In this document: piece after piece, positions 48,132 through 64,000 of the stretch
Numbering within the stretch: the first letter of the stretch is position 1
How the letters are laid out: each line of letters begins with the position of its first letter
NCBI RefSeq assembly: GCF_014925385.1
Contig: NZ_JACSDK010000010.1
Coordinates: forward strand, 124,001 to 188,000
Direction: 5' to 3'
Length of the DNA: 64,000 bases
Origin: Pelagibius marinus
Lineage (GTDB): Bacteria > Pseudomonadota > Alphaproteobacteria > Kiloniellales > Kiloniellaceae
Translations under genes and position numbers: made by a program
The notes under the pieces: generated by a model
Told to the model about the DNA's origin: nothing
The model's input: the letters and a program-made list of their open reading frames with translations, nothing else
Databases searched by the model: none

Positions 48132-48761
48132 ATGGAAGGGTATATCCACTTCGCCGACAAAGTGTCGGCTTGGTTCGGCAAGGCTTTCGCCTGGTTGATC
48201 CTGGTCATGACCTTTGGCGTGGGCTATGAGGTCTTCGTGCGCTACGTGCTGCGCGATCCCACTTCCTGGGCGTTCGACGTCAGCTACATGATGTACGGCA
48301 CGCTCTTCATGATGGGAGGCGCCTATACCTTGTCACGCGATGGCCACGTGCGCGGCGACTTCGTTTACCGGCTGTGGAAGCCGAAGGTTCAGGCCACCGT
48401 GGAGTTGATACTCTATCTCTTCTTCTTCTTCCCCGGCGTCATCGCGCTGATCCTTGCCGGATGGAAGTACGCCGCGCGCTCCTGGAGCTATACCGAGGTC
48501 AGTGTTATGAGCCCCGCGAACGTGCCGATTTTCCAGTTTAAGACGGTGATTATCGCCGCCGGCATCCTGCTGCTGATTCAGGGAATCGCGCAGGTATTTC
48601 GCTCGGTAATCTGCATTCGAACAGGCGCATGGCCGAAGTATTCCGAGGAAGATGTCGAAGAAATGGAAAATGTACTCCTGCGCGAGCACGAGAAGGAGGT
48701 GCTGAGGCACGGCTCAGAGACCATCGACGTGGTTCACACCCAGGAGCGTCGCGATGACTGA
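48132..48761 (+). CDS. TRAP transporter small membrane subunit (DctQ)
   Basis: ATG 48132 follows a GAGG site and gives 209 residues (a TTG at 48120 is an alternative). Four membrane helices are predicted (about 13-33, 43-68, about 90-115, about 135-158), with the DctQ loop YVLRDPTSWAFDVSYMMYGTLFM and the GGAYTLSRDGHVRGDF motif. The charged tail (about 170-209) is longer than usual. The stop overlaps the dctM start by eight bases. Confidence 0.9.
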   Translation: MEGYIHFADKVSAWFGKAFAWLILVMTFGVGYEVFVRYVLRDPTSWAFDVSYMMYGTLFMMGGAYTLSRDGHVRGDFVYRLWKPKVQATVELILYLFFFFPGVIALILAGWKYAARSWSYTEVSVMSPANVPIFQFKTVIIAAGILLLIQGIAQVFRSVICIRTGAWPKYSEEDVEEMENVLLREHEKEVLRHGSETIDVVHTQERRDD

Positions 48762-50109
48762 TCCTCAAATTGCGGTGATGATGCTTGGCATCTTCATCAT
48801 CGTCATCCTGCTCGGATTCCCGATCGCCTTCACGCTGATGGCCATGGGCGTCGGCTTCGGCTACTACGCCTATTACGACCCGGAGCGGATGAGGACGATC
48901 TTCGACAACCGGATCTTTGACCTCTTCGTCAACCAGACCTATTCGGTGATGGCAAACGATGTGCTCACCGCGGTGCCGCTCTTCTTGTTTATGGGCTACA
49001 TCGTCGAAAGGGCGAACATCGTCGACCGCCTGTTCCACACGCTTTACATCGCCTCGCGGCGCCTGCCGGGCTCCATGGCGGTGGCCGCCCTGGCTACCTG
49101 CGCCATGTTCGCCACGGCAACGGGCATCATCGGCGCGGTGGTGACCCTGATGGGCATGCTGGCCTTCCCGGCGATGCTGAAGGCGCGTTACGACACCAGC
49201 TTCGCCTCGGGCGTTATCTGTGCGGGCGGCTGCCTGGGCATCCTGATTCCGCCCAGCATCATGCTGATCGTTTATGCGGCGACCTCCAACGTCTCCATCG
49301 TCAAGCTCTATGCCGGCGCCATCATCCCCGGCTTCATGTTGGCGAGCCTCTACATGGTCTATGTCATTGGTCGCGCCATGATTAACCCCAAGCTGGCGCC
49401 CAAGCCACGGGCGGACGAGGTCGAGCATATCACCGCGGGGCAGGTGGCTTTCCAGCTCTTGACCTCCTTCTTCCCGCTGGCCTTTCTCATTCTTTCGGTG
49501 CTGGGCGCTATTCTCTTCGGCCTGGCGACGCCTTCGGAGGCGGCCTCCATCGGCGCCCTGGGTGGTCTGGTGCTGGCCGTTGCCTATCGGGCCTTGACCT
49601 GGCAGCGCCTGCGCGAGTCGGTCTACCTGACGGTCAGGACGTCGGCCATGGTCTGCTGGCTTTTCGTCGGCTCCTGGACCTTCTCCTCGGTCTTCTCCTA
49701 TCTCGGCGGCGAGCAGCTCATCAACGATTTCGTGCTGGGCCTTAACCTCTCGCCGCTGGCCTTCCTGCTGATGGCGCAGCTGATCATCTTCCTGCTGGGC
49801 TGGCCCCTGGAGTGGTCGGAGATCATCATCATCTTCGTGCCGATCTTCCTGCCGCTGCTGCCGCACTTCGGCATCGACCCGCTGTTCTTCGGCATCCTCG
49901 TGGCGCTGAACCTGCAGACGTCCTTCCTGACGCCGCCTATGGCCATGGCGGCCTACTACCTGAAGGGCGTCGCGCCGCCACACGTGCAGCTGGTGGAGAT
50001 TTTCAAGGGGGTTCTGCCCTTCCTCTCGATGGTCTTCCTGGCCATGTTCCTGCTGTACGTCTTCCCGGAGATCGCCCTGTGGCTGCCCGAGAAGGTCTAT
50101 GGGCACTGA
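48754..50109 (+). CDS. TRAP transporter large membrane subunit (DctM)
   Basis: The 451-residue protein has about twelve membrane helices with a DctM-type N-terminus (IVILLGFPIAFTLMAMG) and the motifs ATATGIIGAVVTLMG and GGCLGILIPPSIMLIVYA. It makes up the Na+-coupled transport pathway. Its stop overlaps the start region of the amidase by eleven bases, which suggests coupling. Confidence 0.95.
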   Translation: MTDPQIAVMMLGIFIIVILLGFPIAFTLMAMGVGFGYYAYYDPERMRTIFDNRIFDLFVNQTYSVMANDVLTAVPLFLFMGYIVERANIVDRLFHTLYIASRRLPGSMAVAALATCAMFATATGIIGAVVTLMGMLAFPAMLKARYDTSFASGVICAGGCLGILIPPSIMLIVYAATSNVSIVKLYAGAIIPGFMLASLYMVYVIGRAMINPKLAPKPRADEVEHITAGQVAFQLLTSFFPLAFLILSVLGAILFGLATPSEAASIGALGGLVLAVAYRALTWQRLRESVYLTVRTSAMVCWLFVGSWTFSSVFSYLGGEQLINDFVLGLNLSPLAFLLMAQLIIFLLGWPLEWSEIIIIFVPIFLPLLPHFGIDPLFFGILVALNLQTSFLTPPMAMAAYYLKGVAPPHVQLVEIFKGVLPFLSMVFLAMFLLYVFPEIALWLPEKVYGH

Positions 50110-51472
50110 TGGAAAAGGTAGTGTGGTGGATCAACTAGCCTCACCGGAGAACCTGAGCGCGGCAGAGCAGGCCGCGCAGATCGCCGCGGGCAGTCTTCGC
50201 TCGGTCGAACTGGTGGAACGCTGCCTCGACCGCATCGCGTCGAGCGAGGAAGCGGTGCAGGCCTGGACCTACCTTGATCCGGACTATGCCCTGAAACAGG
50301 CGCAGGAGAGGGACGAGCAACGCGGACTGGGCTTTCCCATTGGCCCCCTGCACGGTGTGCCGGTCGGGCTGAAGGATATCATCGACACCGCGGACATGCC
50401 GACGGAGAACGGCACGGTCATCGATGCCGGGCGCAAATCGCGCAACGACGCAACGCTGGTTTCCCGTCTGCGCGCGGCGGGCGCGGTTATCCTCGGCAAG
50501 ACCGTGACCACGGAGCTGGCCTTCTATGCGCCGGGCAAGACGCGCAACCCGCACAATCCGGAGCATACACCCGGCGGGTCTTCCAGTGGGTCTGCCGCGG
50601 CGGTGGCGGCGTGGCAGGTGCCTCTGGCCGTCGGAACCCAGACCAACGGTTCGGTGATCCGGCCAGCGTCCTTCTGCGGCGTCGTGGGCTACAAGCCGAC
50701 CCACGGCCTCATTTCCCGTCACGGTCTGCTGTCGCAGTCGCCGCCCCTGGACACGGTGGGTGTCTTCGCCCGCAGCGTCGAGGATGCTGGCCTGCTTGTC
50801 GACGTCATCGCCGGTTACGACCCGGCGGATGCGCACACCCGCCCCATGGCGCACCCGCGTCTCCAGGAAACCGCGCGCAGCGCGCCGCCGCTGCGGCCCT
50901 CCTTCGCTTTGGTCAAAGGCCCGACCTGGGAAGCGGCCTCCGCCGATACCCGCGACGGCCTGGAAGAGCTGCGCGCTTTCCTGGGCGAGGCCTGCGACGA
51001 GGTGGCGTTGCCCTCCGCCTTCGCCCAGGCGCACGACCTGCTGCGCCTTCTCATGGTCGCGGGCTTCGCCAAGAACCTGGCCCCCTACTACGAGAAGGGG
51101 TGGGATCAATTGAGCGATGTCATGTGTGCCGCCATCGAGGAAGGCCGCAAAGTCCTGGCCGTCGACTACAATCTGGCCGTGGAGTGGATCGAGGTCCTGA
51201 ATGCCGGGCTGGGCGAGGTCTTCGAGCGCTATGACGCCATCCTGACGCCCGCCGCGGTCGGCGAGGCGCCGCAGGGCCTCTCGTCGACGGGCGATCCGAC
51301 CTTCTGTACCCTTTGGAGTCTCTGCGGCACGCCTGCCGTCACCCTGCCGCTGTTGCAGGGCGGAGCGGGGCTGCCGATCGGCGTTCAAGTGGTGGGACGG
51401 CGCGGCGACGACGCCCGCCTGCTGCGCGCTGCCCACTGGCTTTCGGCGCAAGTGGCGGCGGATAGTGAATGA
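50099..51472 (+). CDS. Amidase signature-family hydrolase
   Basis: The 457-residue enzyme has the catalytic Lys in GVPVGLKDIIDT (about 83-94), the cis-Ser/Ser segment in TPGGSSSGSAAAVAAW (about 157-172) and TQTNGSVIRPASFCGVVGYKPTHG. It hydrolyses an amide in the cytoplasm. The start ATG 50099 overlaps dctM by 11 bases; a GTG at 50123 is an alternative. Being coupled to the TRAP transporter, it may act on a transported amide or an amide formed from the imported acid. Substrate unknown. Confidence 0.9.
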   Translation: MGTDGKGSVVDQLASPENLSAAEQAAQIAAGSLRSVELVERCLDRIASSEEAVQAWTYLDPDYALKQAQERDEQRGLGFPIGPLHGVPVGLKDIIDTADMPTENGTVIDAGRKSRNDATLVSRLRAAGAVILGKTVTTELAFYAPGKTRNPHNPEHTPGGSSSGSAAAVAAWQVPLAVGTQTNGSVIRPASFCGVVGYKPTHGLISRHGLLSQSPPLDTVGVFARSVEDAGLLVDVIAGYDPADAHTRPMAHPRLQETARSAPPLRPSFALVKGPTWEAASADTRDGLEELRAFLGEACDEVALPSAFAQAHDLLRLLMVAGFAKNLAPYYEKGWDQLSDVMCAAIEEGRKVLAVDYNLAVEWIEVLNAGLGEVFERYDAILTPAAVGEAPQGLSSTGDPTFCTLWSLCGTPAVTLPLLQGGAGLPIGVQVVGRRGDDARLLRAAHWLSAQVAADSE

Positions 51473-53775: not shown

Positions 53776-55128
53776 ATGATGATCACTCGTGTCGATGCGA
53801 GAGGAGAACCGGTGAGCGGCGCCTCGGCGGCGGCGATCGCTCTTTATGAACAGGCGCTGGCCGAACTGCAGTGCTACAGCGGCGATCCGCTGGCGACCAT
53901 CGACGAGGCCCTGGCCGAGAGCCCGGATTTCGTTATGGCTCATTGCCTGCGCGCCTATGTCTTTGTCCTGTCGACGGAGGCCCAGGCCGCCCCCGAGGTC
54001 CAGGCCAGTTTCGACGCCGCGGCTTCGCTGCCCAGCAACGCGCGCGAACGCCGCCACCTGGTTGCCCTGCGTCAGTTTCTGCAAGGCAGCTGGGACGGCG
54101 CGATCGGTGCTCTGGAGGATGTGCTGATCGACTATCCGCGCGATGCTCTGGCGGTGCAGGCGCTGCACCTGGCGGACTTCTTCGTTGGCGATGCCCGCAA
54201 CCTGCGCGATCACGTGGCGCGCGTGCTGCCCGAGTGGTCGCCCGACGATTCGGGCTATCACGCTCTGCTCGGCATGTACGCCTTCGGTCTGGAGGAGTGC
54301 GGCGACTATAGGCGCGCTGAAGAGGCGGGACGCCGTGCCATCGCACTCAATCCCTGCGATGCCTGGGCGCAGCACGCCGTGGCGCACGTCATGGAAATGC
54401 AGGGGCGGGCCCAGGAGGGGATCGACTGGATGACGGGGCGCCAGGGCTTCTGGGCCACGAACAGCTTTTTCGCCGTACACAACTGGTGGCATCTAGCGCT
54501 GTTCCATTTGGAACTGGAGCAGGTCGACCGGGTTTTGGCGCTCTATGACGGACCGCTGCGCGGCGAGCGCTCGCAGGTGGTGCTGGACCTCGTGGACGCC
54601 TCCGCCCTGCTGTGGCGTCTCTACCTGCGCGGCATCGACACCGGCGATCGCTGGAACGAACTTGCCGCGGCCTGGGAACCTCTGGCCACCGACGGGTTCT
54701 ACGCCTTCAACGACGCCCACGCGATGATGGCTTTCGTCGCCGACGGCCGGGATCGGGCCGCCGACGCCCTGCTCGCGGCCCAGCAGCAGGCGATCTCCAG
54801 CAGCACCGGAAATGCGCGGATGACCTGGGAGGTCGGCTATCCGCTGTGTTCGGCTCTGCGCGCTTTTGGGCGTGGCGACTATAGCACCTGCCTCAGCCTG
54901 CTGCGGCCGATCCGCAGCCGTCTCAACCGCTTCGGCGGCAGCCACGCCCAGCGCGATGTCTTCGACCTGACCCTTCTGGAAGCGGCCCGCCGGGACGGCC
55001 ACTACGCCCTGCTGCGGGGATTGGCCAACGAGCGCATCGAGTTGAAGCCGTCCAGCCCGTTGAGCCGGCGCTACCGCCAGGACGCGGCGCGCTGGGCCGC
55101 CCAGACCGCGGGCATCGCCGCGATTTAG
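53776..55128 (+). CDS. TTC38-like tetratricopeptide repeat protein
   Basis: The 450-residue soluble protein is made of helix pairs across almost its whole length. It resembles the TTC38 family, with HAVAHVMEMQGRAQEGIDWM near 200-219, NWWHLALFHLELEQVDRVLALYD near 236-258 and GSHAQRDVF near the C-terminus. Relatives occur in animals and in bacteria; function is unknown. The start ATG 53776 lies near GGTTGAAACCG, a weak site; the next Met could be used. It ends 13 bases before the end of the convergent DUF1194 gene. Confidence 0.85.
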   Translation: MMITRVDARGEPVSGASAAAIALYEQALAELQCYSGDPLATIDEALAESPDFVMAHCLRAYVFVLSTEAQAAPEVQASFDAAASLPSNARERRHLVALRQFLQGSWDGAIGALEDVLIDYPRDALAVQALHLADFFVGDARNLRDHVARVLPEWSPDDSGYHALLGMYAFGLEECGDYRRAEEAGRRAIALNPCDAWAQHAVAHVMEMQGRAQEGIDWMTGRQGFWATNSFFAVHNWWHLALFHLELEQVDRVLALYDGPLRGERSQVVLDLVDASALLWRLYLRGIDTGDRWNELAAAWEPLATDGFYAFNDAHAMMAFVADGRDRAADALLAAQQQAISSSTGNARMTWEVGYPLCSALRAFGRGDYSTCLSLLRPIRSRLNRFGGSHAQRDVFDLTLLEAARRDGHYALLRGLANERIELKPSSPLSRRYRQDAARWAAQTAGIAAI

Positions 55129-56790: not shown

Positions 56791-59706
56791 ATGAGAGTCT
56801 TTGCCCTACCGCTGGTCGTACATCTATCGACCCTCTTCGGTCTCCTGACCATCGTGACCGTCGCGGTGCTGACCTGGGTCGGCTATCAGCGCACGACGGA
56901 GTTGATGGAGAACGATGGCGCGCAACTTGCCGAGCGCGCGGCCACAGAAGTGCGCCAAGCGTTCAGCAATATCATTGAGCCCGTCGAGTTGGGGGTCGCC
57001 CTCATCGGCCAGCACCAGGTTAATGAAGAGACGAAGTGGTACGGGCGTCTCGATCACCTGCCTGTCTTTGCCCAGGCGCTGGATTCTTCGCGCGGAGTCA
57101 ACGCCTACTACGTCGGCTATCGGGACGGCGATTTCTTCATGGTGCGCCGCCTTCGCTCGACGATGGAGCACTTCCTGTTCGATGTCGGCGACAACGTTCA
57201 CTACATAGTCCAAAGCATAGACCGGGAGCCCGGATCGGTTGACGGGCGATTCATTTACCTCGACAGCAACGGGGATATCGTCGGCCAGGTCGTTAAGCCG
57301 AGTTACCCGGACGAATTCGATCCACGCCTGCGGCCGTGGTACCGCAAGGCACTCGTGACCATCGGGGTCGCGCGGACGGAGCCCTATATCTTCGCGACGA
57401 CGCACGAGCTGGGGATTACCTTCGCGATCAGCAGCAGCCGGGCCGACGCCGTCGTGGGGGCCGACTACAGCCTTGCCTCGGTGGCCGATCTGCTCAGCGC
57501 CCGCAAGCCGACACCTTCATCCCGCGTTGTGCTGGCAACTGAAAACGGCCACGTGATCGCCGCCGATGATGCGAGCAGCCTGGTCGTGTCCAGGCTCAAC
57601 GGAACCTTGGAAATGAAGAGCCTCGGCGATTTCGATTCGGAGCCGGTGCGCGTCTTCAGTGGGGGAGGCCTGAAAAGAGAAGGTCTGCGGCGATTTGAAG
57701 TCGGCGACGAGGCCTATCTCGGTTGGAACTTTCTGGTCAACCTGCGAGGCGGCAGCCCGCATAACCTGATCATCACCATTCCGGAACGCGAGCTGCTCGC
57801 CGAGGCCTACGAAACGCTGCGGGATATGCTGATGTTCTCGGCCCTGGTCTTCGTCGTCGCCCTCTTGCTGACGCTCATCGCCGCCTTCTCGATGAGCCGC
57901 TCTCTGGTGAATTTGACGGTTGCTGCCGATCGCTTTCGGAAGTTCGACTACGACACGCCGCTATCCAACCGTTCCTGGATAGCGGAAGTTCGTAACCTGA
58001 CGGAAGGCTTCCAGTCGTTGCAGGCGACCTTGAACCGCTACTCTCATCTACTCGATCTCATTTCCCGCGAGAAAAACCTCACTTCCCTGCAGCCAACCAT
58101 CTTGAGCGAACTCTCGGCCGTCCTTCAGGTGGACAGGGCGGTTCTCTACGTCGTGCCTCAACAGGTCGACGGTCTCGCCCCCGTTGCGTTTAAGGACGGT
58201 GAGAATATCGAGCTCTTGAAGGTCAGGAAGGAGAGCGCCGATCCGGTTCCCGACCTGGTGAGTCGGACCTTGGATGCGGGGCAGCGCAGAGCACTGACCG
58301 GGACGGTCGTGGCTGACGAGATGGGGCTGCCGGGTTTGGCGGCGATCGACAGCAACGATACCTTTCCCAACGCGCTCTGCTATCCCCTGCGCGACCGCAA
58401 GGATGACTATATCGGCGCGATCCTTTTCCTCGATGCGGAGAACGCGTCACATGGCGCCCAAGCGCTCGTCGGCGCGCTCACCGGTATTGCCGCCGTGTCC
58501 CTGGAAACGCGACAGCTCATCGCCACGGAGAAGATGCTCTTCCAGGCCTTCATTGCGCTCATCGCCGGCGCCATCGACGCGAAGAGCCCCTATACCGGCG
58601 GCCACTGCGAACGCGTTCCGGAGCTGACCAAGATGCTTGCCGAAGCGGCGGAAGGGGCGCAGGAAGGCCCCTTCAAGGACTTTGCGCTGAGCGAGGACGA
58701 ATGGGAGGCGGTGCATGTGGCCGCCTGGCTGCACGACTGCGGCAAGATCACCTCGCCGGAATACGTCGTCGACAAGGCGACCAAGCTGGAGACCATCTAC
58801 GACCGGATCCACGAGGTCCGCATGCGCTTCGAGGTGCTGAAGCGAGACGCGGAGATTGCGAGGCTGGTGGCGGTTATGGCGGGGAAAGATCCGGCGGCGG
58901 CCGAAGCGGTCCGCGACGAGACCTGGCGCCAGCTCGACGAGGACTTCGACTTCGTGGCGCAATGCAACGAGGGCGGCGAGTTCCTCAGCGACGACAAGAT
59001 CGAGCGGCTTCATGAAATCGCTGGGCGGACCTGGACGCGGACCCTGGATGACACCATCGGAATTTCCAACGACGAGCGCAAGCGCAAGCTGTCAACGCCT
59101 CGCCCTGTCCTGCCGGCAGTCGAATCTCTGCTCGCCGACCGCCCTGACCACATTGTCCGGCGGCCGGAGCGCGAGGTACTGGGAGAAGAGAATGAATGGG
59201 GCTTCAAGATGAAGCAGCCGGAGCATCTCTACAACCGCGGCGAGCTCTACAATCTCGCGGTGCGGCGGGGCACGCTCAGCGACGAGGAACGTTACAAGGT
59301 CAACGACCACATCATTCAGACGATCATTATGCTCTCGGCCCTGCCTTATCCGCGCCATCTGCGCAACGTGCCGGAGCTTGCGGGCGGTCATCATGAGCGG
59401 ATCGACGGCAAAGGCTATCCCCGTAACCTCACGGGCGACCAGATGAGTCCCGTTGCCCGCATGATGGCCATTGCGGACATCTTCGAGGCGCTGACCGCCG
59501 CGGACCGTCCTTACAAGAAGGGGAAGTCCCTGTCGGTCGCCATCAAGATCATGTCGGGCATGGCCGACGAAGGACACGTCGATCCGGATCTCTTCAACCT
59601 CTTCCTGACGTCGGGCATCTATCGTGCCTACGCAAAACGCTACATGACGAAAGAGCAGATCGACGACGTGCGCATCGAGGATTATTTGACTTCAAAGGCG
59701 GCATAG
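56791..59706 (+). CDS. Cache-HAMP-GAF-HD-GYP cyclic-di-GMP phosphodiesterase receptor
   Basis: This 971-residue protein has a membrane helix (about 8-30), a large periplasmic Cache-type sensor (about 35-340), a second helix (about 347-370), HAMP (about 370-425), GAF (about 440-590) and HD-GYP (about 595-960). The HD is WLHDCGKI near 646, and the GYP motif GGHHERIDGKGYP is at about 865-877. Between the two lies an insert of roughly 140 residues compared with compact HD-GYP domains; a similar insertion is known in a subtype. It would degrade c-di-GMP in response to an external ligand. An UrtA-like binding protein gene follows after 64 bases. Confidence 0.92.
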   Translation: MRVFALPLVVHLSTLFGLLTIVTVAVLTWVGYQRTTELMENDGAQLAERAATEVRQAFSNIIEPVELGVALIGQHQVNEETKWYGRLDHLPVFAQALDSSRGVNAYYVGYRDGDFFMVRRLRSTMEHFLFDVGDNVHYIVQSIDREPGSVDGRFIYLDSNGDIVGQVVKPSYPDEFDPRLRPWYRKALVTIGVARTEPYIFATTHELGITFAISSSRADAVVGADYSLASVADLLSARKPTPSSRVVLATENGHVIAADDASSLVVSRLNGTLEMKSLGDFDSEPVRVFSGGGLKREGLRRFEVGDEAYLGWNFLVNLRGGSPHNLIITIPERELLAEAYETLRDMLMFSALVFVVALLLTLIAAFSMSRSLVNLTVAADRFRKFDYDTPLSNRSWIAEVRNLTEGFQSLQATLNRYSHLLDLISREKNLTSLQPTILSELSAVLQVDRAVLYVVPQQVDGLAPVAFKDGENIELLKVRKESADPVPDLVSRTLDAGQRRALTGTVVADEMGLPGLAAIDSNDTFPNALCYPLRDRKDDYIGAILFLDAENASHGAQALVGALTGIAAVSLETRQLIATEKMLFQAFIALIAGAIDAKSPYTGGHCERVPELTKMLAEAAEGAQEGPFKDFALSEDEWEAVHVAAWLHDCGKITSPEYVVDKATKLETIYDRIHEVRMRFEVLKRDAEIARLVAVMAGKDPAAAEAVRDETWRQLDEDFDFVAQCNEGGEFLSDDKIERLHEIAGRTWTRTLDDTIGISNDERKRKLSTPRPVLPAVESLLADRPDHIVRRPEREVLGEENEWGFKMKQPEHLYNRGELYNLAVRRGTLSDEERYKVNDHIIQTIIMLSALPYPRHLRNVPELAGGHHERIDGKGYPRNLTGDQMSPVARMMAIADIFEALTAADRPYKKGKSLSVAIKIMSGMADEGHVDPDLFNLFLTSGIYRAYAKRYMTKEQIDDVRIEDYLTSKAA

Positions 59707-59770
59707 AGGGAGGCCAACACGCAAAGGTGCCGGCCGTCTGGTGCAAGGGGGTAGATTGGAGAAGAAGCGG

Positions 59771-61075
59771 ATGCAGCCAATGCGGATTCTTCGACGGATT
59801 GTCCTTGTTTCAGGCGTCTCTATTGCGCTCTCTGGCGGAGCGGCGCAGGCGCAACAGGCGGCGGAGGTCATCAAGATCGGCATCCTGCACTCGCTCAACG
59901 GCGAGATGTCGCTCTCGGAGACCAGCCTCAAAGACTCCTTGAAGATGCTGGTCCAGCTGCAGAACAAGAACGGCGGACTGCTGGGCCGGGAAATCGTCGC
60001 GATCCAAAGGGATCCCGCTTCCGATCCGGAAGTCGCCGCCCAGTTGGCCCGCGAGTTGATCGAAGAGGAAGGTGTGGTCGCGATCTTCGGCTGCTGGACT
60101 TCGTCCTGCCGAAAGTCCGTCAGGTCGGTGGTCGAGGAGCTGAACGGACTGCTGTTCTATCCCGTGCAATATGAAGGGCAGGAGTCCAGCCGCAACATCA
60201 TCTATACCGGCGCGACCCCAAATCAGCAGGCGCTACCCGCTGTCGACTTTCTGATGGGCGCGCGCCGCATCGAGCGCTGGGTATTGCTGGGTTCCGACTA
60301 CGTCTATCCGCGCGTCACCAACGGCATCCTCTCCGCCTATCTGCGGGGTAAGGGCGTCGCAGCAGAAGACATCCTGGTGCGCTATGCGTCGTTGGAAGAG
60401 CGGGATTGGCATGACGCTGTCGCCGAAATCGTGGCCTTTGGATCGCAAGGCAAGAGGGCGGCGGTCGTCTCGACCATAAACGGCGAGTCCAACATCTATT
60501 TCTATCAGGAAGTGGCGCGGGCGCAGATCAGCGCCAGGGACATCCCCATCATGGCGTTCTCGGTCGGCGAGGAGGAACTCGTCGGTCTCGATACCGCGCC
60601 CCTGGCCGGGCACTTGGCAGCCTGGAACTACTTCATGTCCGTCGATAACGCCTTCAACCGCACCTATATCAAGCTGTGGCAAAACTTTGCGCAGAACCCG
60701 CGCCGAGTCACCAAGGACCCCATGGAGGCCCAGTTCATCGGCTTCAGGCTCTGGGTGAAGGCGGTGGAGCAGGCGCAGAGTACTAAGATTGAAGCGGTGT
60801 TGAAGGAAATGGTCGGCCTTTCCGTGGACAACCTTTCCGGCGGCATCGCCACCGTGCTCCCCAATCACCACATCACCAAGCCGGCTTTTGTCGGTGAGAT
60901 CCAGGGCGACGGGCAGTTCAAGGTGGTGTGGGAGTCGCCGGAAACAATCGCGGCCGACGCCTGGTCGGATTACTTGCCTTCTACCGCGAAGCTGACCGCG
61001 GACTGGCGCCCGCCGGTTTCCTGTGGGCGTTACAACACGGTGACTGAATCCTGCGAGGGCTTCGTCGGCGAATAG
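59771..61075 (+). CDS. UrtA/AmiC-type periplasmic binding protein
   Basis: From ATG 59771 the product is 434 residues with a signal peptide (ending AAQAQ near 25); a GTG at 59741 would add ten residues. The body is the type-1 binding fold of urea/amide receptors: GILHSLNGEMSLSETSLKDS, IFGCWTSSCRKSV, FYPVQYEGQESS, and a DPMEAQFIGFRLW-type segment. No ABC permease or ATPase gene follows. It lies directly after the Cache HD-GYP receptor, so it may present urea, a short amide or similar ligand to that receptor rather than to a transporter. Confidence 0.88.
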   Translation: MQPMRILRRIVLVSGVSIALSGGAAQAQQAAEVIKIGILHSLNGEMSLSETSLKDSLKMLVQLQNKNGGLLGREIVAIQRDPASDPEVAAQLARELIEEEGVVAIFGCWTSSCRKSVRSVVEELNGLLFYPVQYEGQESSRNIIYTGATPNQQALPAVDFLMGARRIERWVLLGSDYVYPRVTNGILSAYLRGKGVAAEDILVRYASLEERDWHDAVAEIVAFGSQGKRAAVVSTINGESNIYFYQEVARAQISARDIPIMAFSVGEEELVGLDTAPLAGHLAAWNYFMSVDNAFNRTYIKLWQNFAQNPRRVTKDPMEAQFIGFRLWVKAVEQAQSTKIEAVLKEMVGLSVDNLSGGIATVLPNHHITKPAFVGEIQGDGQFKVVWESPETIAADAWSDYLPSTAKLTADWRPPVSCGRYNTVTESCEGFVGE

Positions 61076-61097: not shown

Positions 61098-61667
61098 TCA
61101 GGTCTCGGCGGGGGCCTTCAGCACCGCGAGAAAACGCTCCACCGCGCGCTCCAGAGGGCCGTCGTTCACGATGGTGACCACGTTGGCGCCGGCGGGCAGG
61201 GCGGCGCTGCGGGCCAGGCGCCGCTTCACCGCCGCGGCATCTTCGCGTCCGCGCGCCAGCAGGCGCTGTGTCAGAATCTCCTGTGGGGCGGTGACGAAGA
61301 CCACGGTAGTGGCGGGGTGGCGCCGGCGCGCGTCGTCGATCACCCTGCGCGAGACGTTGGCGATGACCGTGCTGCCGCCGGCAAGAGCATCGGCGATGGA
61401 ACCGGGCAGGGCATAGCGCAGCTCATGCGCGCCCCAATGCAGGAAAAAGGCGCCGGCGGCCAGCTGCACGTCGAATTCGGCCTCGCTGAGGGTGAAGTGG
61501 TCCTCGCTGGCCGGGTCGCTCTGGCGGGTGATGACGCGCCGGGGGAAGACGAACTGCGGCAGGCCGGCGAGCGCCTGGCGGGCGCCTTCGATCAAGCTGT
61601 CCTTTCCGGCGCCACTGGGGCCCACCACCAGGAACAGATGACCGGTCTTGCGGCCCGCCTGGGGCAT
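61098..61667 (-). CDS. phnN: Ribose 1,5-bisphosphokinase PhnN
   Basis: The 189-residue kinase has a P-loop GPSGAGKDSLI at 16-26 and the guanylate-kinase-like body (RRVITRQ, EDHFTLSEAEFD, FFLHWGAHELRYALPGSI). In C-P lyase pathways it makes PRPP from ribose 1,5-bisphosphate. It is the last gene of a three-gene minus-strand cluster with an HD oxygenase-like and a DUF1045 gene; only one base separates it from the HD gene stop. No phnGHIJ genes are seen, so the rest of the pathway must be elsewhere. Confidence 0.92.
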   Translation of the reverse strand: MPQAGRKTGHLFLVVGPSGAGKDSLIEGARQALAGLPQFVFPRRVITRQSDPASEDHFTLSEAEFDVQLAAGAFFLHWGAHELRYALPGSIADALAGGSTVIANVSRRVIDDARRRHPATTVVFVTAPQEILTQRLLARGREDAAAVKRRLARSAALPAGANVVTIVNDGPLERAVERFLAVLKAPAET

Positions 61668-61668
61668 C

Positions 61669-62268
61669 TCAGGCCTCCCGGCGCTCGGCCCGCTCCAGCA
61701 CCGGTCGGAAGGCCTCCAGCGTGGGCGTCGCCATCTCCGGGTCCTTGGCCAACTCGTCCCAGCGCCGCAGCGCCACGGCGTCCTGGGCGTAGGGGCGGGC
61801 CAGGAAGTCGGCGGCCTGCGCGGCGTCGAAGGGACCGCCCTGGACCGCGAGGCTGCGCACGGATTCTTCCGACAGGCGATCGAAGTAGCCGTCTTCGGCC
61901 TGGCAGAGATAGCGCTTGGCCGCCACGTGCTGGGCGACCGGCGCGGTGACCGCCGGGCCGAACCAGCGCGCCAGGTAGTTGGCCCCGACCTTCTCGTGGG
62001 CGGCGTCTATGCCGCGCAGGGTGGCGTCTTCGTCCTTGGGGTTCACCAGGTGCCCGATGTCGTGCAGCAGCGCGGCGGCGACCAGGCTGTCGGAGGCGCC
62101 CTCGCGCTGGGCGAAGGTGGCGCACTGCAGCGCGTGAGCCAGCTGCGTCACCTCTTCGCCGCCGTAGCGGTCGCCCCCCAGTTCCTCCAGCAGCCAAAGA
62201 AGATGCCCGATGGGGTCGGTGACCGCCGCGTCGCCGCCGTGGATTTGGGGTTCGGGAGACTGGGTCAT
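61669..62268 (-). CDS. PhnZ-like HD-domain protein of phosphonate operons
   Basis: This 199-residue HD protein shows the set of PhnZ-like mixed-valent di-iron oxygenase ligands: His45 (TQLAHALQCA), His69-Asp70 (LLHDIGH), His91 (AHEKVGA), His114 (QHVAAKRYL) and an Asp near 163-171. Tyr35 and Glu38 or Glu39 also fit the gate and substrate region. Such enzymes oxidatively cleave a hydroxy-aminophosphonate; other family members have unknown substrates. It overlaps the DUF1045 gene (ATGA). A PhnY partner is not in the window. Confidence 0.85.
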   Translation of the reverse strand: MTQSPEPQIHGGDAAVTDPIGHLLWLLEELGGDRYGGEEVTQLAHALQCATFAQREGASDSLVAAALLHDIGHLVNPKDEDATLRGIDAAHEKVGANYLARWFGPAVTAPVAQHVAAKRYLCQAEDGYFDRLSEESVRSLAVQGGPFDAAQAADFLARPYAQDAVALRRWDELAKDPEMATPTLEAFRPVLERAERREA

Positions 62269-63035
62269 GAAATCACGGGTCCTTCCACGCTGTCGGCGCT
62301 TCCCTCCACCGAGGCGGTTGGTCCGGCGCCGAAGCGGAATCGGTCCACCAGGGTGAAGGGCTTCTCGGCCGAGTTCTGACTATAGAGAGAGATTTCCCCG
62401 ACCGGAACGGGCTCTGCGAGCACCGGGCGGAAGAGGGCGGTGAGCTTGCTCCGCAGCACCTCGCGACGGCTTTCCTCGGCAATCGGGCCGGTCAGGGTCA
62501 TATGAAAGCGGAACTCCTCCAGCACGTAGGGGTAGCCCCAGGCTCGCAGCAGTTCCTCCTGGCGGGGCGACAGGCCGCCGGCGAGGCGGCGCTGCAGCTC
62601 CGCGTCGCTCAGCGGCGCGCGCAGGGGGTCGAGTTCCTGCACCGCCGCGGCGGCCAGGCTTTCCATCTCCGGCGATGGTGTCGAGAAGGTCAGGGCCAGA
62701 AAGGGCCCGATGGCCGAGACCTTCAGCGGCGGCGCCTGGAACGGCTGCCGGGCGGCGGCAAAGGCGCCGAGGCTGTCGTGCAGGCGCCGGAGCGAAACGC
62801 CCGGGGCGAGGCGAAAGGGGGCCTTCAGGGTGCCGTGGAAGCCGTAGTGGCGCGGGCTGCCGGTGGCCGCTTCAGCGTCCTCCGCGCTCACACCGTCCAG
62901 CGCCGGCCGCTCCAGGATCTCGCCGCTCTCACAGTCGCGCCCCAGCCAACTCTGCGCCAATTGCCACAGGGCGGCGCTGCGCGGCGGTGCGTAGTAGACC
63001 GCATAGCGGGGCTGGGGCGATGAGGTATCGGTCAC
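62265..63035 (-). CDS. DUF1045 phosphonate-metabolism protein (2H phosphoesterase-like)
   Basis: A GTG at 63035 (VTDTSSPQPRYAVYYAPP) gives 256 residues; a longer frame to 63113 would need a TTG and extends into non-coding-looking sequence. Two HxT motifs of the 2H phosphoesterase fold are seen, HGTLKAPF near 68 and HMTLTGPI near 179. The family (phosphonate operon protein) is thought to act on a phosphonate-pathway intermediate. Its stop overlaps the start of the HD gene. The ribosome site of the GTG is weak. Confidence 0.85.
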   Translation of the reverse strand: MTDTSSPQPRYAVYYAPPRSAALWQLAQSWLGRDCESGEILERPALDGVSAEDAEAATGSPRHYGFHGTLKAPFRLAPGVSLRRLHDSLGAFAAARQPFQAPPLKVSAIGPFLALTFSTPSPEMESLAAAAVQELDPLRAPLSDAELQRRLAGGLSPRQEELLRAWGYPYVLEEFRFHMTLTGPIAEESRREVLRSKLTALFRPVLAEPVPVGEISLYSQNSAEKPFTLVDRFRFGAGPTASVEGSADSVEGPVIS

Positions 63036-63384
63036 GTCGTGGCCCGGATTATCTGCGTCGAAACTCTTGCTTCCTTCTTGTAGCCAGCGACGGAGGCGGC
63101 GTACAGGCCTCAAAAGCCTACGGTTTCATGACGGCGGCATGACGGTGATTTTGGTTTGCCGAGTCGTGCTCGCCGTGTTTCAGGAGACGCCATCGGCAGT
63201 GACTCGATGTCGAAAATTAACCAAAGACAAAGTCAATGTGGCACTTCAATGACGGTGTCGTGAAGCTGCCATTATATTTGCGTCTACTTGGCTGTCCCGC
63301 CCTTGTACTGCAACAACATGTTGCTATAAGCCGCAGAAAGTTCGCTGAGTTTTGCGATCTACTCGACACCTGCGGAGTCGAAAC
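63036..63384. other. 349-bp intergenic region
   Basis: The gap between the divergent phosphonate genes and the phosphatase gene is AT-richer than average. It contains the promoter-like element at 63303-63330 and a GGAG ribosome site seven bases before the ATG at 63385. No gene was supported; a short frame from 63236 is not convincing. Confidence 0.55.
63303..63330 (+). promoter_or_regulatory. Candidate promoter with palindromic spacer upstream of the phosphatase gene
   Basis: TTGTAC (63303-63308) and TATAAG (63325-63330), 16 bases apart, resemble a sigma-70 promoter. The spacer holds GCAACA (63310-63315) and TGTTGC (63319-63324), a perfect inverted repeat with 3-base gap, a good place for a repressor. 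The start codon is 55 bases further on. Confidence 0.45.
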
Positions 63385-64000
63385 ATGGACGGCCTGGCAC
63401 CTCATTCGCGCCCTTCGCGCTACCGCACGATCTTCATCTCCGACGTCCATCTGGGGACGCGGGGCTGCAAGGCGGACTACCTGCTGGATTTCATCAAGCA
63501 CACCGACTGCGAGACCCTGTACCTGGTCGGCGACATCGTCGACGGCTGGCGTCTGAAGCGCACCTGGTACTGGCCGCAGGCGCACAACGACGTGGTGCAG
63601 AAGCTGCTGCGCAAGGTGCGTAAAGGGATGCGCCTCGTCTACGTGCCCGGTAATCACGACGAGTTCCTGCGTGATTACCTCGGCAGCCATTTCGGTGGCG
63701 TCGAGGTGAGGAAGGAGGCGATCCACGAGACCGCCGACGGCAAGCGCCTGCTGGTGATCCACGGCGACGAGTTCGACGGCGTGGTGAAGTACGCGCGCTG
63801 GCTGGCGCTGCTGGGCGACTGGGCCTACGTCACCATGCTGCACGTCAACACCTGGTTCAACTACCTGCGGCGCAAGCTGGGCTTCGGCTACTGGTCGCTC
63901 TCGGCCTACCTGAAGCACCGGGTGAAGAACGCGGTGCAGTTCATCAGCAACTTCGAGGAAGCGGTGGTCGACGAAGCGCGGCGCCAGGGCGTCGACGGCG
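63385..64000 (+). CDS. LpxH-like UDP-2,3-diacylglucosamine diphosphatase/metallophosphatase (partial)
   Basis: The first 205 codons are visible; the window end cuts the rest. All metallophosphatase ligands appear in order: SDVHLGTRG (Asp, His), VGDIVDGW (Asp), PGNHDEFL (Asn, His) and IHGDEFDG (His). The body resembles the alphaproteobacterial LpxH-type family. It may act in lipid A or another membrane-lipid route. A promoter-like element lies 55 bases upstream. Confidence 0.85.
   Translation, partial: MDGLAPHSRPSRYRTIFISDVHLGTRGCKADYLLDFIKHTDCETLYLVGDIVDGWRLKRTWYWPQAHNDVVQKLLRKVRKGMRLVYVPGNHDEFLRDYLGSHFGGVEVRKEAIHETADGKRLLVIHGDEFDGVVKYARWLALLGDWAYVTMLHVNTWFNYLRRKLGFGYWSLSAYLKHRVKNAVQFISNFEEAVVDEARRQGVDG

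Follow-up and report, generated by a model that had tools for sequence, protein, structure and literature searches.

An UrtA-like binding-protein gene beside a dCache/HD-GYP sensor gene in Pelagibius marinus: a candidate co-receptor pair

The organization of two neighbouring genes of Pelagibius marinus, a membrane sensor gene and the periplasmic binding-protein gene that follows it, was analyzed. They lie in a stretch of 64,000 nucleotides (assembly GCF_014925385.1, contig NZ_JACSDK010000010.1, positions 124,001 to 188,000 of the forward strand), hereafter the window, whose coordinates are used throughout; all features of the two genes are on the + strand. The first gene (P0001, 56791..59706), identified as an open reading frame and by Pfam and structure matches, encodes a dCache/HD-GYP membrane sensor of 971 residues. 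The second (P0002, 59771..61075), recognized with Pfam and TIGR03407, encodes an UrtA-like periplasmic binding protein of 434 residues when read from its ATG. Its longest frame starts at a GTG (59741) and counts 444 residues, and residues of P0002 are numbered here after that form; the ATG at 59771 is likely the true start, since a ribosome-binding GGAG precedes it, close to the end of the 64-base intergenic gap (59707..59770). A likely Sec signal peptide (59771..59851), read by eye from the sequence, has AQA as its last residues. The + strand of the gap shows no terminator-like site between the two genes, and we infer that they are co-transcribed. No permease gene was recognized beside P0002 among the flanking genes scanned with Pfam. 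Side by side on one strand thus stand the gene of a second-messenger enzyme in the membrane and that of a periplasmic binding protein without a permease; the initial annotation, which had placed the binding-protein gene 64 bases behind the sensor gene and had seen no permease genes near it, was right on both points, with both frames at the coordinates given here.

The sensor is anchored by two transmembrane segments predicted from hydropathy, at about residues 8-28 (56812..56874) and 346-368 (57826..57894), which enclose a periplasmic dCache domain (about residues 30-340, 56878..57810). The Pfam match to dCache_1 (residues 154-263) scores 31.4 bits, below the cut-off of 45. In a sequence search with the periplasmic region, the best solved matches were CtaA, PctA and PctB, the dCache domains of amino-acid chemoreceptors. 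The structure model of the full-length protein is poor (mean predicted local distance difference test, pLDDT, 58.9; predicted template modelling score 0.36), and the periplasmic part alone was used, where the pLDDT is mostly 70-85. In the fold search two full-length chemoreceptor integrative models rank first, followed by PctA, Tlp3 and CtaA (6pxy, named as in the fold-search listing), whose structures were determined in the presence of L-Ile, L-Leu, L-Met and others. Alignment with PctA and CtaA places the dCache_1AA motif Y-R-W-Y-Y-D at F176, R181, W183, Y184, Y199 and D225 (57316..57465), so that five of six positions are identical in a domain itself below the Pfam cut-off. W128, Y144 and D173 of PctA are named in PMC10104139. 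At the first position, where the sensor has F, the alignment gives F in CtaA as well, a protein solved with amino acids. The other PctA motif positions, beyond these three, are taken as background.

We compared the sensor with its family in 102 loci, the window included; the 101 others were selected from a larger set of matches, 75 of them with the full-length layout and three with a cut downstream flank. With Y or F allowed, 71 of the 76 full-length members (window included) have the whole motif, and 32 of these 76 have the strict form. Amino-acid sensing would be the default expectation for this dCache/HD-GYP family, and for the dCache domain of the window sensor direct binding of an amino acid is most likely. 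In periplasmic motif and fold it resembles PctA and CtaA, which are however chemoreceptors, whereas the window protein is an HD-GYP enzyme.

Behind the membrane, a GAF-like region may occupy about residues 425-575 (58063..58515), as suggested by a GAF_3 match found in one relative only (L183) and below cut-off. The HD-GYP domain follows (58597..59592), with HD at 648-649, K652, HH at 867-868 and GYP at 875-877 assigned from Pfam and alignment; HD (603-700) and HD_5 (776-934, 162.5 bits) both score above their Pfam cut-offs, and the catalytic residues are invariant across the four aligned family members (A1). The sensor probably degrades an internal signal molecule. Among solved structures, the one that matches the catalytic end best is 5z7c, a phosphodiesterase specific for 3'3'-cyclic GMP-AMP (3'3'-cGAMP); next by sequence, and found by fold as well, is 4mcw, a phosphodiesterase of cyclic diguanosine monophosphate (c-di-GMP). 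As the best match is the 3'3'-cGAMP-specific enzyme, c-di-GMP can be named only as the presumed substrate. A large insert between the HD and GYP motifs had been pointed out in the initial annotation, and the counts agree: HD and HHE are 219 residues apart in the window sensor against 53-63 in three other HD-GYP proteins measured (no value could be read at four more loci), with an insert at about residues 660-815 (58768..59235, edges approximate). It is a family trait, since the spacing is 212-232 residues wherever both motifs could be read, which was so in 80 of the 102 family loci, window included. An oddity of the window protein alone was thereby rejected. Such a long insert is uncommon, yet it is no defining feature for HD-GYP membership.

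P0002 scores 456.7 bits with Peripla_BP_5 and 457.8 bits with the UrtA model TIGR03407, for which the cut-off is 492.75. The urea contacts of Prochlorococcus UrtA have been mutated, and mutation of Phe192 is reported to be of little effect (PMC10392092). All eight key contacts are retained in P0002 (W119, S121, Y140, Q143, E145, Y187, N247 and S274), and Phe192 is replaced by Tyr; urea is the likely ligand because these eight residues are kept. The rest of the protein has diverged strongly: it deviates at 45 of the 195 positions where 70 UrtA proteins are constant to 97% or more, it shares on average 56% identity with these proteins compared to 77% among 500 sampled pairs of them, and its terminal branch measures about 0.9 against a mean of 0.13. 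AmiC, the regulator of aliphatic amidase, is a more distant relative. A complete urtABCDE operon is present on the same contig, with its own UrtA (580.6 bits, 57% identical to P0002) and with UrtB to UrtE passing their cut-offs, and P0002 is therefore a second, divergent UrtA copy. It matches UrtA of the UrtABCDE transporter in family profile and in the urea contacts; it differs from it by the lack of adjoining permease genes, the changed constant positions and the sub-cut-off score. Probably P0002 is no longer part of a urea transporter. It had been called a urea/amide-type binding protein: the UrtA-like character and the urea contacts bear out the urea part of this, and full membership in the UrtA family as modelled by TIGR03407 does not hold.

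Second copies of UrtA are rare. In a survey of 398 genomes from the phylum, with at most four best candidates scored per genome, UrtA was found at E <= 1e-100 (expect value) in 127 genomes and a second copy in three: the window genome, G126 and G292. In G292, an alphaproteobacterium, the second UrtA gene shares 4 bp with the end of the gene for a 632-residue dCache-class III cyclase (L342:7577-10755). The same pair is annotated on a B. japonicum conjugative plasmid (NZ_CP126014.1, L344:6001-9185), where the two proteins are 83% and 85% identical to those of G292 and no urtB-E match occurs within the 13.9 kb read; a further cache-domain gene is annotated downstream of this pair. As in the window, a dCache enzyme is followed by a permease-less UrtA; the output differs (class III cyclase), as does the gene overlap. 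The second UrtA of G126 (L341:7858-9084) has no adjoining sensor among the open frames, read by eye with no family scan, and no urtB-E match in a 17-kb stretch; it has lost a key urea-binding glutamine (Q143E) and probably has a changed ligand. The 77 other UrtA-type loci checked (50 + 27, a part of all matches) all have an adjoining urtB-like gene; L255, a candidate orphan, was rejected when urtB was found further downstream. The window pair being the original observation, the independent evidence is one orphan UrtA out of two behind a dCache enzyme. dCache proteins make up about 1% of genes by our own estimate, and on this estimate such a coincidence has a chance of roughly 2%.

The sensor family itself was found next to unrelated binding proteins. 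In the genus of G155 the sensor is present at E <= 1e-100 in 23 of 25 genomes, and all 23 loci were examined: in 21 of them the sensor gene is preceded on its own strand by a gene of the SBP_bac_3 type, with 5-56 bases between matched ends. Pfam, run on one of these proteins, gives 27.4 against a cut-off of 26.4, barely above. The same arrangement exists in G096, a member of another class, where the binding-protein gene ends 39 bases before the sensor gene and its product is 32-33% identical. (The orphan SBP_bac_3 pairs are loci L182, L183, L224, L225, L227-L236 and L331-L337, plus L072 in the other class.) The SBP_bac_3-paired sensors fall in one clade (support 0.973) together with nine sensors that lack such a neighbour; the pairing may have had one origin with losses, or may have spread by transfer. 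Like the window pair, these loci combine the same sensor family with a lone same-strand binding-protein gene, but of an unrelated family and upstream, whereas the gene of the window is downstream.

Other neighbours of the family are isolated cases. A LivK-like gene lies 170 bases upstream of the sensor gene in G480 (L170); in 33 other loci from the family of G480 no substrate-binding-protein neighbour was recognized, by eye and with four such queries that could miss other binding-protein families. In G162 a TIGR03427 binding protein, of the urea-carboxylase-region type, is encoded 371 bases downstream of a family sensor (L181:2631-3683); it was set aside as an ordinary transporter component, the next gene resembling by eye a permease of the ATP-binding cassette type. 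An MtxA-like (magnetotaxis protein) gene is present 198 bases upstream of an HD-GYP family protein in G261 (L180:7221-8222), and in a Rahnella and a Vibrio plasmid record the upstream neighbours of the sensor are without Pfam match; a Cupriavidus record carries no annotated genes.

Taken with these comparisons, the window pair is best read as a variant of binding-protein-assisted second-messenger sensing. The sensor would be an acquired phosphodiesterase of the dCache/HD-GYP type that binds an amino acid by its own periplasmic domain, and the downstream gene would encode a strongly diverged UrtA, outside the transporter and still able to bind urea. P0002 would then act as a periplasmic co-receptor, a second input to the sensor: in its urea-loaded or its empty form it would contact the dCache domain and turn the phosphodiesterase activity up or down, and so alter the level of c-di-GMP or of a related cyclic dinucleotide. 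Urea binding, docking and the direction of the effect are all what we infer; as a whole we offer this account tentatively, at slightly less than even confidence, as the best single explanation. In its favour are the gene order, the kept urea contacts and the divergence of P0002 in a genome that has a normal UrtA as well, and two observations support partners in general: the orphan SBP_bac_3 gene beside the same sensor family, and the rarity of second UrtAs together with the position of the G292 copy directly behind a dCache cyclase.

Partners of this type are known. In the NspS-MbaA system of Vibrio cholerae, a periplasmic binding protein interacts with the periplasmic domain of a membrane c-di-GMP enzyme (PMC8079147; PMC9993111), and homologs of the system exist in Sinorhizobium meliloti. 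As in the window, the binding protein is encoded beside the membrane c-di-GMP enzyme; NspS however binds polyamines and is encoded upstream, and MbaA carries GGDEF/EAL domains, so that the window pair, with its UrtA-type and HD-GYP domains, falls outside the strict NspS-MbaA type. In Salmonella the response of STM1987, a dCache_1 second-messenger cyclase, also requires the periplasmic protein ArtI (PMC8846402). The likeness to the proposed pair is that of a dCache_1 second-messenger enzyme with a periplasmic binding protein; STM1987 and ArtI serve c-di-GMP synthesis and L-arginine, where the window has an HD-GYP phosphodiesterase and an UrtA-type protein. ArtI itself is part of a transporter whose other genes lie elsewhere. 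Few cases are documented, to our knowledge, in which a binding protein feeds into a c-di-GMP enzyme, and among the open-licence matches listed in our literature search no paper dealt with the pairing of an UrtA-like protein and a sensor of the HD-GYP or Cache type.

A chance neighbour is nevertheless a serious rival to the co-receptor account: the sensor would respond to amino acids by itself, the UrtA-like gene would be a passenger or an independent insertion, and there would be no physical link between the products. We consider this possible rather than likely, and a series of observations speaks for it and against cooperation. With the threshold of E <= 1e-100, the sensor was found in only two of the 61 genomes of the order searched, the window genome and G004. 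The G004 sensor, the only one in a genus relative, is 80% identical and occupies the same site in a region collinear with the window (78-81% DNA identity); this region lacks the 1.4-kb UrtA-like gene, and the sensor is presumably functional without it. No UrtA-like match occurs at E <= 1e-60 anywhere in the G004 genome, and no remnant of the gene was seen by eye at the junction. In six other genus members the flanking genes, among them those following the pair (phnN-like, HD, DUF1045 and the next gene, 61098..63918, - strand, assigned with Pfam and used as site markers in the genus), are in the same order with neither pair gene between them, and the gap is about 0.9 kb in one. None of the 101 other HD-GYP family loci has an UrtA-like neighbour (E <= 1e-4), and in the nearest clade (support 0.996) nine further sensors are without a recognized binding-protein partner. 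The pair is a singleton: it is not conserved, the idea of a conserved operon was rejected on these three grounds (G004, the six genus members, the family loci), and its linkage has no conservation behind it. The initial annotation had itself named missing linkage in relatives as refuting its proposal, and such linkage is indeed missing. The amino-acid motif adds to this. As the dCache domain carries it, sensing can be explained with no docked partner, and the sensor probably works without one. The eight urea contacts are by themselves no strong evidence, since 77% of the constant positions are kept anyway. P0002 and the UrtA of G292 are not sisters in the tree, and they have in common 10 changed constant positions against 5.3 expected (P 0.017), a modest excess. 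Against mere neighbourhood stand the scarcity of second UrtAs, one of the two others lying directly behind a dCache enzyme, the orphan SBP_bac_3 genes adjoining the same sensor family in one clade, and the GC content of the pair, lower than that of most flanking genes. The notion of binding-protein-assisted sensing put forward in the initial annotation gains from comparable pairs elsewhere and loses from the lack of conservation and from the amino-acid motif.

As to the history of the site, it is simplest to assume that the sensor gene was inserted where it now stands. The UrtA-like gene may have come with it and been lost in G004, or may have come later. The GC content is 61% in both genes and 66-72% in most neighbours, which fits a joint arrival; this argument is weakened by a nearby dctM-like gene (61.7%) and by the genome's own urtA (62.8%), which are about as low. 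The closest named sensors beyond the genus are betaproteobacterial (Propionivibrio, Azoarcus and Oxalicibacterium, 44-45% identity). No mobile-element signature was seen at the site, where repeats are short and imperfect. A tetratricopeptide repeat gene (53776-55128) is also present in five of the six other sensor-less genus regions, and is absent from the G005 stretch and the G004 region. A few kb upstream of the pair, a gene resembling a tripartite ATP-independent periplasmic permease is followed by an amidase-like gene (48754-51472; both named by eye).

Two further explanations keep P0002 functional and are less probable. It is improbable that P0002 is an auxiliary substrate-binding protein for the UrtBCDE permease encoded elsewhere in the genome: the complete urtBCDE on the same contig and the intact urea-contact residues would allow it, but that operon has an UrtA of its own, P0002 is altered at many near-invariant positions and scores below the UrtA cut-off, and every other UrtA-type locus checked has its urtB-like gene adjoining. 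Least probable of all is that the pair cooperates on another ligand (for example a short amide) or through another output (for example with 3'3'-cGAMP as substrate), for which the best catalytic match and the distant relationship to AmiC can be cited, but against which stand the complete set of urea contacts and the 4mcw match by both sequence and fold.

Returning to the co-receptor account, its extension to other genomes is possible but doubtful: transporter-free UrtA paralogs would have been recruited repeatedly to serve dCache second-messenger enzymes as urea co-receptors in the periplasm, once for an HD-GYP enzyme and independently for a class III cyclase. If this were true, there would be a class of urea-to-second-messenger receptors. 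For testing binding-protein partners of the sensor family, the SBP_bac_3 pair, conserved in one genus, is a better system than the window pair. If P0002 does act as a co-receptor, second-messenger control would have a direct input from urea, which is a common source of nitrogen, and a single sensor could combine the signals of urea and an amino acid. Together with the lone UrtA gene behind a cyclase gene in G292, the pair hints at a recruitment of urea-binding proteins for sensory roles.

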